IMG/VR virus record: IMGVR_UViG_3300030106_002579
Location: 1 to 23,852 of that record
DNA length: 23,852 nt
Source: a virus
Strand: one strand, 5' to 3'
The translations under genes and the position numbers were made by a program. Shown here piece after piece: positions 3,301 through 12,247 of the stretch; positions within the stretch are counted from its first letter, which is position 1; each line of letters begins with the position of its first letter. The notes under the pieces were generated by a model. It did no database searches and had not been told where the DNA came from. It saw nothing but the letters and a program-made list of their open reading frames with translations.

Positions 3301-3717
3301 ATGGCTGTAAAAGGTGATGTAGGAAAAATCATGTTTGAAAATGCTGGCGGTACGGAAGCCGACATTTCAGACTTAAGATCATGGTCATTGTCTATTACTA
3401 AAGACACACAAGAAACCACAAAAATGGGTGATACATCAAAATCATTTGTTGGTGGCCTTATTTCTGGTGAAGGTTCTGCAACTTTACTTTATAACCCATC
3501 TGGCAATTCAGATTATCAAGCTTTTATTGATGATGTTCTTGTAACTGGTGACGCTGGTGACGCTCTAATTGAGTTATTTCCTGATTCAAATACTTCTGCT
3601 AAAAAAATTAGTTGTGCAATTATTATCAATAGTGCAGATTATGGGGCGACTCTTGGTGAGATTCAAGAGATAAATATTACGTTTATCACTAATGGTGCCA
3701 TTACATCAGCTATATAG
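3301..3717 (+). CDS. Major tail (tube) protein
   Basis: This 138-residue protein starts at ATG 3301. It shows the siphovirus tube-protein pattern: a short N-terminal strand (GDVGKIMFENAGG), then LRSWSLSITKDTQETTKMGD, a glycine-rich turn with FVGGLISGEGSATLLYNP, a helix around DYQAFIDDVL, and paired strands ending GEIQEINITFITNGAI. Copies stack as hexameric rings to form the tail tube. The upstream 26 bases are nearly all A and T and contain no Shine-Dalgarno sequence although this should be one of the most abundant products, so initiation may rely on an unstructured leader. The tape-measure chaperones follow directly. Confidence 0.82.
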   Translation: MAVKGDVGKIMFENAGGTEADISDLRSWSLSITKDTQETTKMGDTSKSFVGGLISGEGSATLLYNPSGNSDYQAFIDDVLVTGDAGDALIELFPDSNTSAKKISCAIIINSADYGATLGEIQEINITFITNGAITSAI

Positions 3718-3746: not shown

Positions 3747-4100
3747 ATGGCAACAAAAAGAACCGTTGATCTTATCACTGAGGCTTTCAGTGATGTAATG
3801 ACCGCAAGAAGAAAATATCAATTAAAAAAACCAAATGGTGAATTATTAAAAGAAATTTATTTCCCTCCTTTAACAAGATTTGACAGAATCCAAGCTCAAG
3901 CTGCTGCTGGGACTGATGATGCTTTAACAATTTCAACAAGACTTCTATGCCAATTAGCTCAAAACGAGGATGGTACAAAAGCGTTTGCTTCTGCTGATGC
4001 TGAAAATTTAAAAAGATTTTTACCAGAAAGTATATTAAATGAACTTGAATTTTTTATGATGGATATTCAGGTTGATATTAATACAGCAAAAAACGAATAA
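3747..4100 (+). CDS. Tail assembly chaperone, unshifted G-type product
   Basis: This 117-residue protein starts at ATG 3747 and ends at TAA 4098-4100. It is mostly helical and acidic toward the end, with a short beta part (KYQLKKPNGELLKEIYFPPLTRFDRIQAQ) and DALTISTRLLCQLAQNEDG. This is the layout of lambda gpG-like chaperones that coat the tape measure before the tube forms. The position between the major tail protein and the tape measure, and the slippery heptamer near its stop, identify it more firmly than the sequence alone. No clear Shine-Dalgarno sequence precedes it. Confidence 0.78.
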   Translation: MATKRTVDLITEAFSDVMTARRKYQLKKPNGELLKEIYFPPLTRFDRIQAQAAAGTDDALTISTRLLCQLAQNEDGTKAFASADAENLKRFLPESILNELEFFMMDIQVDINTAKNE

Positions 4101-4276
4101 AGCGAGATAACTGGATATATTTTGAGTTTTTTCTCGCAACAGAATTAGGCAAGACTTTACAAGAATTACGAAAATCAGTGACACAAGAAGAATTAATTTA
4201 TTGGGCTGCATATTATGAAGTTAAAAATGACAGAGAAAAACAAGAAATGAATCGTCAAAAGGCAAAATCACGGTAG
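3747..4276 (+). CDS. Tail assembly chaperone G-T fusion by -1 frameshift
   Basis: Reading frame 0 to AAC at 4092-4094 (116 codons), then slipping back one base and continuing from C4094, gives 60 more codons to TAG at 4274-4276, 176 residues in all. The added part begins RIKRDNWIYFEFFLATELGK and continues with TLQELRKSVTQEELIYWAAYY, which resembles T domains of lambda-type gpG-T proteins that bind the tube protein. This extension has no usable start codon of its own before a late Met, so frameshifting is the simplest way to make it. In lambda only a small share of ribosomes shift; the rate here cannot be read from sequence. Confidence 0.82.
4088..4137 (+). promoter_or_regulatory. Programmed -1 frameshift signal (slippery site plus stem-loop)
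   Basis: The heptamer A AAA AAC (4088-4094) lies in the correct zero-frame phase (GCA AAA AAC). Seven bases later GCGAGA (4102-4107) pairs perfectly with TCTCGC (4132-4137), leaving a 24-nt loop. Four of the six pairs are G-C in very AT-rich surroundings. The frame 0 stop is at 4098-4100, just after the slip site. Heptamer, spacer and structure match the known architecture of bacterial and phage -1 frameshift signals. Confidence 0.82.
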
Positions 4277-4300: not shown

Positions 4301-6112
4301 GTGGCACAATCAACAGTTAAATTAATAGTTGATGCACAAAATGCCATTAGACCATTGCAACGTGTTAACCAGCAGACACAAAATTTAAATAAAAATACAA
4401 ACAAATTAAAAGATAGTTTAAATAAATCAAATACATCATTAAGAGCAACAGGAAGGGCTGCAACATCAGCGAGCGGTGGATTTAGAACACTTAACAAATC
4501 TCTTGGTCCATTATTGAAAGTCTTAGCTGCGATTGCTGCGGTTAAATTCGTTTTTGTTCAAAGTGCTGATATAGAAACTCAAAGAAAAAGTTTAGAAGTT
4601 CTTACAGGATCACTTTCTAAAACAAATAAAATTATTCAAGAATTACAAGATTTTGGTGCTGTTACACCTTTTACAAGTAGTGAATTAATAGAACAATCAA
4701 AAAGGTTAAAAGCTTTTGGATTTACAACTGATGAACTTTCAGATAGTGTAAAAAGGCTTTCCGATATTGCTGGTGCTACTGGTGCTGACTTATCAGGTAT
4801 TGCAACTGCATTTGGTCAGATAAGAGCAAAAGGTAAATTACAACAGGAAGAGAATCTTCAATTATTGGAAAGAGGAGTTGATATAACAACAGAACTTAAA
4901 AAAATAACAGGTTTGCAAGGAGAGGAATTTGAGTCAGCGATGCGAAAAGGTAAAATTGGCGCTGATCTTGTCAACGAAGCCTTTATTAACCTAACAAACG
5001 AAGGCGGTGCATTTTTTGGTGGTGCTACTGCTCAAGCTGATACTTTAAATGGAAAATTATCAACACTTATAGACTCAGTTCAAGGTTTAGCTAGAACAAT
5101 TGGAGAAGTTTTAGGACCAGCAATAAAAACGGCTTTATCGTTAGCAACATCGGCCGTACAAACTATTGATAAATTAATAAAAAGAGTTCAAAATATAACA
5201 CAACTTGGTTTAAAAAATGTTCTTCAAGCAGAAAATGCAGCGAAAAAAACTGCTGAAAGGTTAACAAAATTAAAATTTGGTGATGATGTAAATTTAGGTT
5301 TGTTTGGAAATAAAGAAGCTAAAAAGTTTCAAGAAGAACAATTTAATTTGTTAGTAAAACAAAATATAGAAAGAGAAAAGCTTAAAAATAAACAGTTTGA
5401 AGAAACTGAACTTATCAAACAAGCTAATCAACAACATTCTCAAACAGTTACAAAAATACAAGAAAAAAGCAATGCTACAGATCAATTTAATTTCAAGTTA
5501 GAAGAATCATTTTTTCAAATTCAAAAAATACAAAATGAAACGTCAAAATTAAATTCACAATTTTTAGAAATTGGAATGACTATTGAAAATGGTATTGTTT
5601 CTAATCTTACTGACACAATCATGGGCGTTCAATCGCTGGGTCAAGCAGCAATTGGTGTCTTAAATAGTTTAAAAAGAAAAATTATTGAGGTTGCTTTACA
5701 AAATGCTGTTTCTGGTCTTGGTCGAGGAATAGCCGGTAGTTTAGGAGGTTTGTTTGGTGGCGGTCTAGGTGGTGGATTAGTACCGTTTATACCAGGTCTA
5801 GGTGGAGCCGGTTTTGGTGGTGGCGGTATAAGTCCACTTTTAGGTTTTGCAAATGGTGGAAGACCTCCAGTAGGAAGAGCTTCTATCGTTGGCGAACGTG
5901 GTCCTGAGATTTTTGTTCCTGGTGTTTCTGGAACTATAATGCCGAATAGCTCTTTAGGTGGTTCAACAAATATCGTGAATGTTTCTGTTAATGCATCAGG
6001 CTCTAATGTTTCAGGTAATAATGCTGATGCAAATCAATTAGGACAACTTATAGGAACTGCCATACAAGCACAATTAATAAAAGAAAAACGCCCTGGAGGG
6101 TTATTAGCATAA
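4301..6112 (+). CDS. Tape measure protein
   Basis: This 603-residue protein starts at GTG 4301 with AAAGG at 4285-4289. Residues 1-60 are an Asn/Lys/Gln-rich helix; about 80-240 resemble the tape_meas_nterm domain (FTSSELIEQSKRLKAFGF, then LSDIAGATGADLSGIATAFGQ and ENLQLLERGVDI). Residues 300-420 are charged coiled coil. From about 475 a glycine-rich hydrophobic stretch follows, and near 525-550 lies the FANGGRPPVGRASIVGERGPE box common at tape-measure C-termini. It sets tail length and is thought to be ejected with the DNA. By the usual rule of about 0.15 nm per residue, it would give a tail of roughly 90 nm. It shares its last A with the next ATG. Confidence 0.88.
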   Translation: MAQSTVKLIVDAQNAIRPLQRVNQQTQNLNKNTNKLKDSLNKSNTSLRATGRAATSASGGFRTLNKSLGPLLKVLAAIAAVKFVFVQSADIETQRKSLEVLTGSLSKTNKIIQELQDFGAVTPFTSSELIEQSKRLKAFGFTTDELSDSVKRLSDIAGATGADLSGIATAFGQIRAKGKLQQEENLQLLERGVDITTELKKITGLQGEEFESAMRKGKIGADLVNEAFINLTNEGGAFFGGATAQADTLNGKLSTLIDSVQGLARTIGEVLGPAIKTALSLATSAVQTIDKLIKRVQNITQLGLKNVLQAENAAKKTAERLTKLKFGDDVNLGLFGNKEAKKFQEEQFNLLVKQNIEREKLKNKQFEETELIKQANQQHSQTVTKIQEKSNATDQFNFKLEESFFQIQKIQNETSKLNSQFLEIGMTIENGIVSNLTDTIMGVQSLGQAAIGVLNSLKRKIIEVALQNAVSGLGRGIAGSLGGLFGGGLGGGLVPFIPGLGGAGFGGGGISPLLGFANGGRPPVGRASIVGERGPEIFVPGVSGTIMPNSSLGGSTNIVNVSVNASGSNVSGNNADANQLGQLIGTAIQAQLIKEKRPGGLLA

Positions 6113-6681
6113 TGGCAACATTTCCCGATATTAGTCCTATTTATGGGATGAGAAAAGTAAGTCAACCAAAAATACGAAGCACATCATTAGGTGACGGGTA
6201 TGAATTTAGAACTTTACAAGGATTACCTTTAACACAAGATCCTAAAATTTTTGAATTAACTTTTGAAGTATCTGAAACTGAATCAGATATTATTGAAGCA
6301 TTTTTAAGAAGTCGTGTAAATGATCAAGCAAGTTTTGATTTTACCCCACCTGGGGAAGGGTCTACAAAAACTGGAACTTACTCACAATCAAGCAGTGCCA
6401 CAGTCACAATTACCATTACTAATCATGGCTTTGCTATTGGTGATGTAGTAACTATTGATTATACTTCAGGTTCTGCAACAGATGGTACATTTGCAATAGC
6501 CACTTCAGTTGATCAAAATACGTTTACAGTAACAGCAGCTTCAACTGGTACTAATAGTGGAAATGTATCGGTCACATTGTCAGGGGCTGGTAAATATGTT
6601 TGTGAACAGTGGGAAAAATCAATACCATATAATAACAGAGCAACTTTAAATTGTACTTTTAGAGAGGTATTTGAACCCTAA
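6112..6681 (+). CDS. Minor tail protein, lambda M-like, with inserted beta domain
   Basis: This 189-residue protein starts at ATG 6112. The N-terminal part (SQPKIRSTSLGDGYEFRT, then FELTFEVSETESDIIEAFLR and ASFDFTPPGE) and the last 30 residues (KYVCEQWEKSIPYNNRATLNCTF) correspond to the two halves of phage minor tail proteins of the lambda gpM family, which lie at the tail tip below the tube. Between them, about residues 89-155, an extra Thr/Ser-rich domain is inserted (NHGFAIGDVVTIDYTSGSAT). A similar unit recurs in the J-like protein downstream. Lambda gpM, at about 109 residues, lacks it, which accounts for most of the extra length. Confidence 0.78.
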   Translation: MATFPDISPIYGMRKVSQPKIRSTSLGDGYEFRTLQGLPLTQDPKIFELTFEVSETESDIIEAFLRSRVNDQASFDFTPPGEGSTKTGTYSQSSSATVTITITNHGFAIGDVVTIDYTSGSATDGTFAIATSVDQNTFTVTAASTGTNSGNVSVTLSGAGKYVCEQWEKSIPYNNRATLNCTFREVFEP

Positions 6682-7253
6682 TGGCAATACCAACAGCAGA
6701 ATTACAATCTTTGACAAATAAATCAATAATTGAATTATTTTCATTGACTTTAGTTTCAGATTTACATGGTTCAACAAGTGTAACTCGTTTTCATTCTGGG
6801 GTTGGAATGAATAGTAATGCTTCAATAATATGGCAGGGAAATACATATGATAAGTTTCCTATTATTGCAGAAGGTTTTGAATATACAGGAGAGGGTAAAT
6901 TGCCACGACCACAACTTACTGTATCAAACATTCTTGGAACGATTACTGCATTAATGGCAACAGTAAATGCTACGACACCATTTAATGATTTACAGGGTGC
7001 AAAAATTATTCGTCATAGGACGATGGCTCAGTTTCTTGATGCTGCAAACTTTCCTTCAAATCAAAATCCTTTTGGTACTCCATCAAGCACTACAGAACTT
7101 CCACAAGAAATTTATTATGTTGAAAGAAAAACATTAGAAAATAGACAAATCGTACAATTTGATTTAGTTTCTGCACTTGATCTTCAAGGAATTCGCGCAC
7201 CAAAACGTCAAGTTACAAGAAAAGATTTTCCTTCTATAGGTACTTTTACATGA
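6681..7253 (+). CDS. Minor tail protein, lambda L-like, lacking the cysteine domain
   Basis: This 190-residue protein starts at ATG 6681, whose A is the last base of the previous TAA. The motifs IIELFSLTLVSD, ASIIWQGNTYDKFPI, GKLPRPQLTVSNI and GAKIIRHRTMAQFLDAANFP, and the segment ending with APKRQVTRKDFPSIG, follow the lambda gpL family closely. Lambda gpL (about 232 residues) ends in a domain whose cysteines bind an iron-sulphur cluster; this protein stops before it and contains no cysteine at all. It overlaps the next gene by ATGA. It should act at the tail tip with the M- and J-like proteins. Confidence 0.8.
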   Translation: MAIPTAELQSLTNKSIIELFSLTLVSDLHGSTSVTRFHSGVGMNSNASIIWQGNTYDKFPIIAEGFEYTGEGKLPRPQLTVSNILGTITALMATVNATTPFNDLQGAKIIRHRTMAQFLDAANFPSNQNPFGTPSSTTELPQEIYYVERKTLENRQIVQFDLVSALDLQGIRAPKRQVTRKDFPSIGTFT

Positions 7254-7957
7254 CTTGGAAAACAAAAGCTGAAAAACACGCTATTGAATGTTTACCACAT
7301 GAATCTTGTGGTTTACTAGCAATAATAAAAGGAAAAGAAACATATTGGCCTTGTAAAAATATTGCTGATTCTAATTTTGAATATTTTGTAATTGATCCTG
7401 ATGATTGGGAAGAATGTGAAGATTCGGGAGAAATAATTGGTATTGTTCATAGCCACCCTGTTGGGCCTGTAACACCTTCAGATGCTGATAAAGCAAGTTG
7501 TGAACATTTAGGATTGCCTTGGTATATTTTTAGTCCTACTTTAAAGGGATGGTACAGTTTTGAACCAAGTGGATGGAAAACACCTTCATTAATCGGAAGA
7601 GTTTTTTTATGGGGAAAACATGATTGCTGGTCTATTATAAGTGACTGGTATTTACAAAAAAAAGGAGTAAAACTTATGGAATGGAAACGCCCTAAAACAC
7701 TTAAACAGTTCTTACAAAATCCAGAATTTGAAAAAGCATTACCGATGGGAGGATTTGTAAAGCAAAAAAATAATGATGATATACAAGTTGGTGATGTTTT
7801 ACTTTTTCAAACTGTTACAGGTAATCTAGATCATGTAGCTGTTTATATTGGCGATAATACATTATTAAATCATAATATAAGAAGATTAAGCTGTAGAGAA
7901 CCTTTTGATTTAAATTATCAACGTGCATTAAAAGGAGTTTATAGATATGAAGCTTAG
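7250..7957 (+). CDS. Tail tip protein, lambda K-like: JAB/MPN plus NlpC/P60 domains
   Basis: This 235-residue protein starts at ATG 7250. Residues 1-105 are a JAB/MPN metalloprotease-like domain with Glu18 in HESCGLL and the intact motif H67-x-H69-x7-S77-x2-D80 (HSHPVGPVTPSDAD), which would bind zinc. Residues about 117-235 are an NlpC/P60 domain with the nucleophile Cys126 in GKHDCWSII, His195 in LDHVAVYIG and a third polar residue near His208. Lambda gpK has the same two-domain form. The protein probably acts at the tail tip, with the NlpC/P60 part able to cut peptidoglycan stem peptides during entry. It overlaps the next gene by 11 nt. Confidence 0.88.
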   Translation: MTWKTKAEKHAIECLPHESCGLLAIIKGKETYWPCKNIADSNFEYFVIDPDDWEECEDSGEIIGIVHSHPVGPVTPSDADKASCEHLGLPWYIFSPTLKGWYSFEPSGWKTPSLIGRVFLWGKHDCWSIISDWYLQKKGVKLMEWKRPKTLKQFLQNPEFEKALPMGGFVKQKNNDDIQVGDVLLFQTVTGNLDHVAVYIGDNTLLNHNIRRLSCREPFDLNYQRALKGVYRYEA

Positions 7958-8675
7958 AAAAATTAAAGTTTATGGTAGATTAAGACAATTTTTGGGCAAA
8001 CCATATTTTGAAGCCGTTGTAAATAATCCATTGCAGGCATTTAGTTTTTTAATAAATAATTTTCCAGAAGTAGAAAATCATATAAATAATCAAATCTATA
8101 AAGTAAAAATGGGTGATTTAGAAATAACTGAAGATATTTTACAAATGAATGGTGATGGTGATATCAAAATAATTCCTATTGCTATTGGTTCAGCACCAGC
8201 AATTCCTATAATTGGTGGATTAATCACCGCAGGTGCTGGCGTTGCTATTGCTTCGTCATCGGCTGCTATTTTTACTACTGCAATACTTGGTACTACTGTT
8301 GGTGCGCTTGTTGGCGGTGGATTAATAGCAGCAGGAGCAAGCATGGCGATATCAGGTGTAAGTAGACTTATTGCTCCAACTCCAACAATTCCTGTTGTTC
8401 CAGCCACACCTGCTTATAGTCCCGCAGCAGTAGACGTTGGTGGTGGGGTTAGAGGTAGTAGTGGAGGCGGCGGTGGAGGCGGAGAGGGAAGCGCACCATC
8501 CTTAAGTCCTTTAGATCCAAGCCTACCAAGTGTTCAAGCAAACTTTGGTTTTAGTTCAATTTCAAATACTACAAGGGCTGGGGTTCCTGTTCCAATAATT
8601 TACGGTCTTGTATTTAGTGGTTCTGTAGTAATAAGCTCTGGTGTTGATACAGTTCAAGTAAAAGGTACTGCTTGA
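7947..8675 (+). CDS. Tail assembly protein, lambda I-like
   Basis: This 242-residue protein starts at ATG 7947 with AAAGGAG at 7931-7937. Residues 1-80 form a ubiquitin-like fold segment (KIKVYGRLRQFLG, then EVVE-type helices and DGDIKIIPIAIG). Residues 85-150 are a long Ala/Gly/Ile-rich hydrophobic stretch, followed by a Pro/Val segment, a polyglycine linker near 167-183 and a C-terminal part (NTTRAGVPVPIIYG, then VVISSGVD) conserved in lambda gpI homologues. The I proteins are needed for tail assembly, possibly as a chaperone for the J initiator. The JAB domain of the K-like neighbour and this ubiquitin-like part form the well-known phage pairing. Confidence 0.83.
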   Translation: MKLRKIKVYGRLRQFLGKPYFEAVVNNPLQAFSFLINNFPEVENHINNQIYKVKMGDLEITEDILQMNGDGDIKIIPIAIGSAPAIPIIGGLITAGAGVAIASSSAAIFTTAILGTTVGALVGGGLIAAGASMAISGVSRLIAPTPTIPVVPATPAYSPAAVDVGGGVRGSSGGGGGGGEGSAPSLSPLDPSLPSVQANFGFSSISNTTRAGVPVPIIYGLVFSGSVVISSGVDTVQVKGTA

Positions 8676-11600
8676 TGGGTTCAATAAAAAAAGCAATTGA
8701 TTCAACTGCAGGTGATTTTGGAATTACAAATCCGCAAATACCTAAAGATTCACTTGCCTCAAAGCAATTTCAACTTTTGATTGATCTTATTTCAGAAGGA
8801 GTTATATCAGGCTTCCCTTCTGCTACTGGTTCACAAGGTTCAGATGAATATAACAGAACTGCATTAAAAGATGTATTTCTTAACGATACTCAAGTACTTC
8901 AACAAAATAAAGATGGGACTGAAGAATCTCATTTTAATTTTAAAAATGTTACTTTTGAACCAAGATTTGGAACATCAGATCAAACTGCAATTCCTGGTAT
9001 TGTTGCAAGTGAATCTGAAACAATTGTAGGCACAGTAGTTACAGATTTTCTTTCAAGATCTATAACAAATACAGATGTCAATGCTGTAAGAATTACTATT
9101 GCTTTTCCTAGTTTGCAAACTTTTACAGATAGAGGAGATATTGAAGGAGCTAGTGTAAATTTAACTATATCTAGAATTGATGGTAATGGCACAGAAGTTA
9201 CGCCAATTAATGACGTTGTAACGGGAAAAACTGCCAATACATATTTTAGAGATTATGAAATAGATATACCTTCTGGAACTGTTTTTCCTGTAACTATAAA
9301 AGTAAATAGAATAACTGCCCAAAGTTTTGTAACAACGCTACAAAATGATTTTTTATGGAGTTCTTTTACAGAAATAATACATGAAGCAAGACCATATGCT
9401 AATTCGGCTCATGTTGCATTACGTTTTGATGCTGAAACTTTTCCATCGGTTCCATCAAGAACTTACAGGGTAAAAGGAACTCTTATAAAAATTCCACACA
9501 ATGGAACTGTTAGGGCTGATGGATCAATTGAATATTCTGGAACATTTAACGGTACTTTTAAAACTGACAAAGAGTGGACAAATGATCCAGCGTGGATTTT
9601 ATATGATTTGCTTACAACGAGCAAAGGTTTTGGAGATCAAATTGATACATCACAATTAGATGTTTACAGTTTTTATTCAGCATCTGTTTACTGTTCAGAA
9701 CAAGTAGATGATATGACAGGCACAGGAAATACAGAGCCTCGCTTCTCAACAAATGTCGTTCTAAATACTCAGCGTGATTCATATTCCTTGATAAATGATC
9801 TTTGCTCTGTGATGAGAGTAATGCCTTTTTATGGCGTTGGAACAGTTCAAATATCCCAGGATCGTCCCACAGACGTAAGCTATATCTACAATCTCAGCAA
9901 TGTTTCAGAAGAAGGCTTTAGTTATCAAAACTCAGGTAAAACAACAAAAGCAACAGTTGTAAATGTTGGTTTTTTTGATAATGATCTACAACAGATAGAC
10001 TATGAAACTGTAGAAGATACAGATTTAATAGCTAAATATGGTGTTGTTGTTTCTAATTTAAAAGGTTTTGCTTGTACTTCAAGAGGTCAAGCTAGACGTA
10101 TTGCAAAATGGTTTCTTTATACTCAATCAAACGAAGCCGAGGCAGTATCATTTAAAACAACGATAGAATCAGGAACTATTGTAAGAGTTGGAACAATAAT
10201 TAATATTCAAGACCCAATGAAGGCTGGGGTAAGAAGAGGTGGGCGTATAAAAACAGGTGTATCTACAACTCAAATTGTCGTTGATGATCAAAATAATACA
10301 GATTTAGCAACAACAGATTCTGCAACTTTATCTGTTATTTTATCTGATGGCACGTTAGAAACAAAAACAATAAGTAGCATTACAGGAACAACAATTACTG
10401 TATCATCTGCATTTTCTTCTGTACCACAAACAAATTCAGTTTGGGTGATAGAAAATACATCATTACAACTTCAAATTTTTAGAGTTATATCTGTTAAGGA
10501 AGTCAATGATGTTGAATATGAAATAAACGCTGTTGCACATAATCCTTCTAAATATAGTTTTATTGAAGATGGCTCGACCTTAGAAACTCGTACAATTACA
10601 ACCCTTTCAGATCCAAAACCAGCGCCAGGTAATTTACAAGCTACGGAACAAATTGTTGTAATAAATGGAAGAGCGGTATCAAAATTATTTATAACATGGT
10701 CACCAGTACAAGGCGTTACAGAATATATGTTGCAGTATAGATTTAATGATGATAATTTTATCACTGAAAGAATAACAAGACCAGATTTTACTATTTTTGA
10801 AACAAGTCTTGGAACTTATGAGGTGCGTGTTTTTAGTTATAATGCATTACAAAAACCAAGTATTGAACCTGCAACAATATCAGTTACCACAGTAGGTAAG
10901 ACAGCTTTGCCAGATGATCCATCTGGATTAACAATTGAACCTGTTTCAGATGAGTTTGTACGACTACGTTTCAACCCCTCTACCTCTGTTGATGTTTTAC
11001 ATGGAGGCACAGTTTCCGTAAGGCATACACCGAGTACTGATCCAACCATTGCAATTTTTCAAAATGCAACAGAATTAGTTCCTAAACTTGCTGGCAATAT
11101 TACAGAAACATTGGTCCCTGCATTATCAGGTACATATTTATTAAAATTTATTGATGATGGTGGTAGAAAATCAGAAAATGCAGCGAAAATAATTGTTTCT
11201 CAACCTGATCCACAACCAAATCAAGTAATACTTACTGAAAGAGAAGATACTGATTCACCACCATTTCAAGGCGAAAAAGTAAATACTTTTTATGATGTAG
11301 ATTTTGATGGATTGCTTTTAGATGGTGTTCTTTTATGGGATTCAATAACACAAAATATTGATGATTTATCAAATATAGATTTTGCTGGCCCAGTAAATTC
11401 AACTGGGTCTTATGAGTTTCAAAATGTTATTGACCTTGCATCAAAATTTAACTTAACACTTAAAAGAAGATTTGTTACCTCTGGTTTGCTGGTAAATGAT
11501 CTAATTGATTCAAGAACTGCAAACATTGATACTTGGACTGATTTTGACGGTACTTTACCAGAAGATGTAAATGCTTCTCTTTTTGTTTCTACGTGTGATT

Positions 11601-12247
11601 TAGATCCCGCAACATCAGTCTCAGCAACTTACGAGCAAAGTGGTACTACTATTACTATTACCAAAAACAATCATGGTTATAACACTGGAGATTTTGTTGT
11701 TATAGATTTTACTGCTGGAAGTGCCACAGACGGTAATTATGAAATTCAAACAATAACCACTAATACTTTTACAGTTACAGCAAGTGAAAGTGCAACAATA
11801 TCAAGTGGAACTTCTTGTACTTATGGAGCAAATTTTACTCAATTTAACACTTTTGCTAATGGAGAATATACAGCAAGAGGTTTTAAATTTAAAGTTGAAC
11901 TCACATCAAACGACCCAGCACAAAATATAAACGTATCCGAACTTGGCTTTGAAGCAAGCATCAAACGTAGAACAGAAACAGTAAACACATCTATAGCATC
12001 AGGAACTTCGGCAAAAACTGTAACTTTTACAAATCCCTTTTTCACGGGAACTGGTTCCCTTGGTGGATCAACAACAGCATTCTTACCAACTGTAGGTATT
12101 ACTTTAGAAGGTGCTGTAACAGGTGATTATTTCAAAATAACTTCTATTACAGGAACTCAATTTGTTATTGAAGTAAGAGATTCAAGTAATAATTTTAAAG
12201 ATCTTAATTTTAGATATACTGCTGTAGGGTTTGGTAAAGGAGGGTAA
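8675..12247 (+). CDS. Tail tip / host specificity protein, lambda J-like
   Basis: This 1190-residue protein starts at ATG 8675, overlapping the previous TGA by one base, with AAAGG at 8661-8665; the upstream TTG at 8672 is less likely. The N-terminal half follows the gpJ pattern (QFQLLIDLISEGVISGFPS, LKDVFLNDTQV, DPAWILYDLLTTSKGFG, YSLINDLCSVMRVMPFYGVG, and GQARRIAKWFLYTQ). A small insertion near 530-590 precedes fibronectin-like repeats at about 650-840. About residues 985-1040 are a beta unit like the one in the M-like protein. The C-terminus should make the receptor-contact region. Length is close to lambda gpJ (1132). Confidence 0.88.
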   Translation: MGSIKKAIDSTAGDFGITNPQIPKDSLASKQFQLLIDLISEGVISGFPSATGSQGSDEYNRTALKDVFLNDTQVLQQNKDGTEESHFNFKNVTFEPRFGTSDQTAIPGIVASESETIVGTVVTDFLSRSITNTDVNAVRITIAFPSLQTFTDRGDIEGASVNLTISRIDGNGTEVTPINDVVTGKTANTYFRDYEIDIPSGTVFPVTIKVNRITAQSFVTTLQNDFLWSSFTEIIHEARPYANSAHVALRFDAETFPSVPSRTYRVKGTLIKIPHNGTVRADGSIEYSGTFNGTFKTDKEWTNDPAWILYDLLTTSKGFGDQIDTSQLDVYSFYSASVYCSEQVDDMTGTGNTEPRFSTNVVLNTQRDSYSLINDLCSVMRVMPFYGVGTVQISQDRPTDVSYIYNLSNVSEEGFSYQNSGKTTKATVVNVGFFDNDLQQIDYETVEDTDLIAKYGVVVSNLKGFACTSRGQARRIAKWFLYTQSNEAEAVSFKTTIESGTIVRVGTIINIQDPMKAGVRRGGRIKTGVSTTQIVVDDQNNTDLATTDSATLSVILSDGTLETKTISSITGTTITVSSAFSSVPQTNSVWVIENTSLQLQIFRVISVKEVNDVEYEINAVAHNPSKYSFIEDGSTLETRTITTLSDPKPAPGNLQATEQIVVINGRAVSKLFITWSPVQGVTEYMLQYRFNDDNFITERITRPDFTIFETSLGTYEVRVFSYNALQKPSIEPATISVTTVGKTALPDDPSGLTIEPVSDEFVRLRFNPSTSVDVLHGGTVSVRHTPSTDPTIAIFQNATELVPKLAGNITETLVPALSGTYLLKFIDDGGRKSENAAKIIVSQPDPQPNQVILTEREDTDSPPFQGEKVNTFYDVDFDGLLLDGVLLWDSITQNIDDLSNIDFAGPVNSTGSYEFQNVIDLASKFNLTLKRRFVTSGLLVNDLIDSRTANIDTWTDFDGTLPEDVNASLFVSTCDLDPATSVSATYEQSGTTITITKNNHGYNTGDFVVIDFTAGSATDGNYEIQTITTNTFTVTASESATISSGTSCTYGANFTQFNTFANGEYTARGFKFKVELTSNDPAQNINVSELGFEASIKRRTETVNTSIASGTSAKTVTFTNPFFTGTGSLGGSTTAFLPTVGITLEGAVTGDYFKITSITGTQFVIEVRDSSNNFKDLNFRYTAVGFGKGG

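Follow-up and report, generated by a model that had tools for sequence, protein, structure and literature searches.

We report that a tail assembly chaperone gene (G) and the open frame that follows it (T) in a stretch of viral DNA are almost certainly expressed in part as one protein, through programmed −1 frameshifting on the ribosome, of the kind known from lambda G/GT. Comparisons of homologous DNA clearly indicate that the frameshift signal is kept by selection in this virus group. Recoding sites of this kind are already known, and our analysis confirms the observation and supports its interpretation; what is new is the site itself, which is apparently unannotated in related records, in marine siphoviruses that have many environmental relatives. 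The window, as we call the whole stretch analysed here, comprises 23,852 nt (positions 1 to 23,852 of IMG/VR record IMGVR_UViG_3300030106_002579) and is part of a virus record of 31,761 bases. It appears to come from a marine bacterial virus with relatives that infect picocyanobacteria, and these relatives suggest its host. Its genes run in the order major tail protein, G, T and tape measure protein, with further minor tail protein genes downstream (Table 1). Searches for Rfam families and tRNA genes in the window gave no matches.

Table 1. Coordinates of the G/T frameshift region and its neighbors in the window
Feature	Position	Strand	Evidence
Major tail protein, upstream neighbor	3301..3717	+	Major tail protein family phrog_10528, E 2e-38
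G, tail assembly chaperone, 117 aa, 0 frame	3747..4100	+	phrog_20784, phrog_344, predicted fold match 2ob9
Slippery heptamer A AAA AAC	4088..4094	+	In phase with G; conserved; synonymously frozen
Spacer, 7 nt, contains G stop TAA 4098-4100	4095..4101	+	Same spacing in clades A and C
Putative stimulatory stem, 5′ arm GCGAGA	4102..4107	+	Pairing kept in all 41 distinct sequences, with one G.U
Loop, 24 nt, with predicted inner helix 4109-4112/4125-4128	4108..4131	+	Minimum-free-energy fold
Putative stimulatory stem, 3′ arm TCTCGC	4132..4137	+	Leu codon CTC in all 68 distinct sequences
T domain, −1 frame, 60 codons post-shift + TAG stop 4274-4276	4094..4276	+	phrog_337; dN/dS
Tape measure protein, downstream neighbor	4301..6112	+	PF20155 TMP_3 E 7.5e-22; phrog_9959

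A canonical −1 signal consists of a heptamer of the form X XXY YYZ, followed after a spacer of 5-9 nt by a structure. G starts at ATG 3747, and the 0-frame codons of its heptamer are AAA AAC. Since the −1 frame opens at 4082 (and runs to TAG 4274-4276) and G stops at TAA 4098-4100, a shift must fall between 4082 and about 4100, and the heptamer does lie within the only 19 nt where both frames overlap openly. The two arms, GCGAGA and TCTCGC, pair perfectly over 6 bp across 24 nt. A first-pass annotation, made by a model from the sequence, had described this in-phase heptamer, the 7-nt spacer and the stem, and its coordinates check exactly; its count of 60 codons past the shift and a 176-residue fusion (116 + 60 aa) is likewise borne out. 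The loop it described as 24 nt has that length but is predicted not to be fully open, because AACU at 4109-4112 can pair with AGUU at 4125-4128 in the ViennaRNA fold. With the same program, the hairpin region 4095-4145 is predicted to fold at −13.5 kcal/mol (z = −3.9).

How often such a signal would arise by chance can be gauged from the surrounding sequence. The tail genes have a canonical heptamer in phase at 33 of 4219 codon positions, which gives a chance of about 4% of finding one among the few codons that permit a shift, and a comparable GC-rich stem of 6 bp, correctly spaced, follows only 25 of 13300 positions. As heptamer and stem are both rare, their combination at the sole place where a shift would be useful is unlikely by chance. 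Moreover, none of 3000 synonymous recodings of the start of T in the window folds as stably as the native hairpin.

To follow the signal among relatives we used homologues from IMG/VR scans, which fall into five clades: A (that of the window), B (with Prochlorococcus phage MED4-184), C (with Synechococcus phage S-H1), D (with cyanophage KBS-S-2A) and E (with the single-cell virus AG-345-A17). T lies at −1 relative to G throughout clades A, B and C. A check of the heptamer among homologues, as the first-pass annotation had proposed, found it kept at 81/81 loci of clade A, as AAAAAAC at 78/81 and AAAAAAA at 3/81, and as AAAAAAC at 81/81 loci of clade C, where the G proteins are only about 50-57% identical to those of clade A. 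In clade A there is no synonymous change at all in GCA AAA AAC across 68 distinct sequences. The leucine codon of the 3′ arm is CTC in all 68 (CTC makes up 8% of Leu codons) and the arginine codon of the 5′ arm is CGA in 67 of 68, AGA being twice as common, whereas leucine and glycine codons a few codons away from the signal are freely variable. The corresponding lysine codon in clade C is AAA in 62/62 sequences (32% of lysine codons in that clade are AAA), and the stem codons CAG and TGC are invariant there.

All six pairs of the clade A stem are intact in 41/41 distinct sequences, with one G.U, and all five pairs of the clade C stem (GCAGG/CCTGC) in 47/47. Random synonymous recoding leaves the clade A stem in place in only 3 of 2460 trials; the clade C stem survives in 623 of 2820, so that its pairs alone are less telling, but no more than 15 of the 2820 recodings fold as well as the native sequence. 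The two-part hairpin of clade D keeps 92% of its pairs and has changes on both sides in three of them, and its covariation score exceeds those of all 500 shuffles and all slid versions. Because the stem hardly varies within clade A, the structural evidence for the window comes from synonymous freezing and from the comparison between clades, in which the stem stays intact between A and C though its sequence differs, and covaries in the KBS-S-2A clade.

Transcriptional slippage, in which RNA polymerase stutters on the A run so that some mRNAs gain or lose one base and join G and T, would give the same fusion, and RNA polymerase can realign on A runs. The run here has only six A, however, and is not lengthened in most relatives, and the selected downstream stem, rebuilt in sister clade C, and a reading-frame phase kept exactly as a ribosomal heptamer needs it are further features at odds with slippage. 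One clade even lacks the A run (A AAG GAA) and yet has T at −1. We therefore consider slippage very improbable.

T is, judging from its substitution patterns, a real domain, with purifying selection confined to the −1 frame. There its dN/dS is 0.16 for clade A and 0.10 for clade C, and the −1 frame is free of stops where the two other frames have stops in every sequence. T matches the phrog_337 tail protein family in 56/56 relatives, Pfam and NCBIfam searches with T returned chance matches only, and its predicted structure comprises three helices (pLDDT 88). The conserved T residues start soon after the shift site. This last point, together with the scarcity of start codons, weighs against T being a separate gene translated from an internal start or by reinitiation at the G stop. 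Such an arrangement might be expected from the overlap of the G stop with the T frame, which resembles that of coupled genes, and the S-H1 annotation does have a separate short ORF in T. Between the opening of the T frame and its conserved block, however, there is no ATG, GTG or TTG at 80/81 clade A loci (one has a TTG) or at 82/82 clade B loci, in agreement with the earlier claim that T lacks a start of its own, and we regard this possibility as less probable still than slippage. That G was split by sequencing error or decay, leaving T a dead remnant, is a reading open to any frame break known from one contig. Here, however, some 80 separate clade members share the identical break on contigs of their own, and with a dN/dS of 0.16 and a stop-free −1 frame in T this reading can be practically dismissed.

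The assignment of G and T as tail chaperone genes, made in the first-pass annotation, is upheld by matches to chaperone and tail protein families and by a predicted fold like that of the HK97 chaperone. The G protein of the window by itself has no Pfam match. Among its relatives, 51/51 match phrog_20784, 24/51 match the tail assembly chaperone family phrog_344 and 7/51 match Phage_TAC_13 with weak E-values. For the structure models, rows from the phage record collection were left out of the alignments. The best PDB fold match of the G model (pLDDT 84) is 2OB9, the HK97 tail assembly chaperone (probability 1.00, E 3e-4, TM 0.50-0.60), yet the two share 11-12% sequence identity, and a sequence-level search of the PDB with G and T profiles found nothing credible, including no match of G to 2OB9. 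By family and predicted fold, then, G is probably a tail assembly chaperone. Separately, the models of G and of T each have a fold match to the same viral protein, BFVD entry D6PII1 (179 aa), which suggests that this entry is either an in-frame G-T fusion that occurs naturally or the annotated product of a shift.

For phage lambda, a programmed −1 frameshift in G/GT was reportedly described by Levin in 1993 and by Xu in 2004, 2013 and 2014, and the lambda slippery site is G GGA AAG. Lambda resembles the window in having the chaperone gene between the major tail and tape measure genes, a −1 shift near the end of G and a short T extension without a start; it differs in its slippery site, where the window uses A AAA AAC with a 3′ hairpin. 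In lambda, where the mechanism is established, the tape measure protein is bound by gpG and gpGT, which are in a molar ratio of about 30:1; T binds the major tail subunit, and the virion retains neither gpG nor gpGT (reviewed by Atkins and colleagues, PMC5009743). Low-level g-t frameshifting is widely conserved among long-tailed phages (PMC5009743), and in an HK97-related tail chaperone cluster it was measured at 6-7% (PMC3711429). As far as sequence can show, the window agrees with the lambda scheme throughout. In E. coli the heptamer A_AAA_AAC induces less shifting than A_AAA_AAG (PMC5009743). It is also the proposed g-t site of the haloarchaeal virus HCTV-2 (PMC5009743), which thus shares its proposed site with the window, as far as the description of that site goes, but has an archaeal host.

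With a ribosomal frameshift in the window, most ribosomes would translate G and terminate at its TAA. The hairpin at 4102-4137 would hold up a minority of them at A AAA AAC, where the lysine and asparagine tRNAs could re-pair one base back (AAA AAC to AAA AAA), and the shifted ribosomes, presumably few, would read the −1 frame to 4276 and produce the G-T fusion. If the proteins act as in lambda, G would coat the tape measure protein, the few G-T molecules would recruit the major tail protein through their T domain, and neither G nor G-T would stay in the virion.

The heptamer is shared by clades A and C but not by all relatives. Members of the S-H1 clade have homologous G and T, the same heptamer and the same spacing as the window, but their stem is GCAGG/CCTGC, with its 3′ arm a few nucleotides further downstream. 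The Prochlorococcus siphoviruses MED4-117, MED4-184 and P-HS2 also have homologous G/T (53% identity, tblastn) and a −1 shift, but carry NNA_AAG GAA instead of the heptamer and a weaker, G.U-rich downstream stem, which in MED4-184 folds no better than shuffles. NNA_AAG GAA stands at the corresponding place in 82/82 clade B loci (L082, from MED4-184; L083, from MED4-117; and L087-L166 among them); A_AAG is a minimal −1 site (PMC5009743). In some clade D members (L300, L303, L304, L308, L311 and L316) C CCA AAA replaces the heptamer, T is still at −1 and the G stop lies one codon after CCA AAA NNN, so that C CCA AAA is apparently the −1 site of these KBS-S-2A relatives.

Clade E (L327-L406) has T at +1. 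Here AAA is found in 71/71 and AGC in 70/71 distinct sequences, whereas the preceding leucine codon varies at its third base and the codon that follows AAA AGC varies too, and a +1-frame stop codon lies directly upstream of AAA. A subset of clade D (L318, L320-L323, L325 and L326) has the same AAA AGC and T at +1. The locked AAA AGC and the upstream +1-frame stop point to +1 frameshifting at AAA_AGC. A −2 shift in clade E was considered and rejected, given the +1-frame stop just before AAA and since neither tRNA would be able to re-pair two bases back. One clade E locus, L370, seems to have G and T in one frame and proved to be a copy carrying a deletion inside G. A limited literature search turned up no paper that names AAA AGC as a shift site of tail chaperones.

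In a FastTree phylogeny of concatenated G + T, clade A groups with B+C, and D groups with E apart from these, with low support for B itself. It seems quite likely that one chaperone family of marine and freshwater phages has kept its G-T fusion while its recoding signal was rewritten several times, in both the −1 and the +1 direction. The series would include A AAA AAC/A with clade-specific hairpins (in the clades of the window, S-H1 and KBS-S-2A), A_AAG, apparently C CCA AAA, and AAA_AGC for +1 shifts (in the AG-345-A17 clade and the small KBS-S-2A subset). If so, it would be a natural series in which a frameshift changes its mechanism, and even its direction, without loss of the product, and the family would offer a comparative set with two constant domains, at least three shift signals, two directions and hundreds of environmental sequences.

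The T domain is lost to annotation pipelines that take no account of such sites. The region was said to be left empty by gene callers, which is true of the GenBank records of MED4-184, MED4-117 and KBS-S-2A but not of that of S-H1, with its short separate ORF there. A frameshift would account for the apparent non-coding gap in the records of these related phages.

Two observations concern other tail genes of the window. JAB (Prok-JAB) and NlpC/P60 domains are fused in one tail protein (7250-7957), which matches the minor tail family phrog_30. The minor tail protein at 6112-6678 contains a beta-barrel-like segment with a weak match to End_beta_barrel (PF12195), which is repeated in the 1191-aa protein at 8672-12247 (56% identity over 43 residues, E 8e-11) as though a domain had been copied from one tail protein into another.
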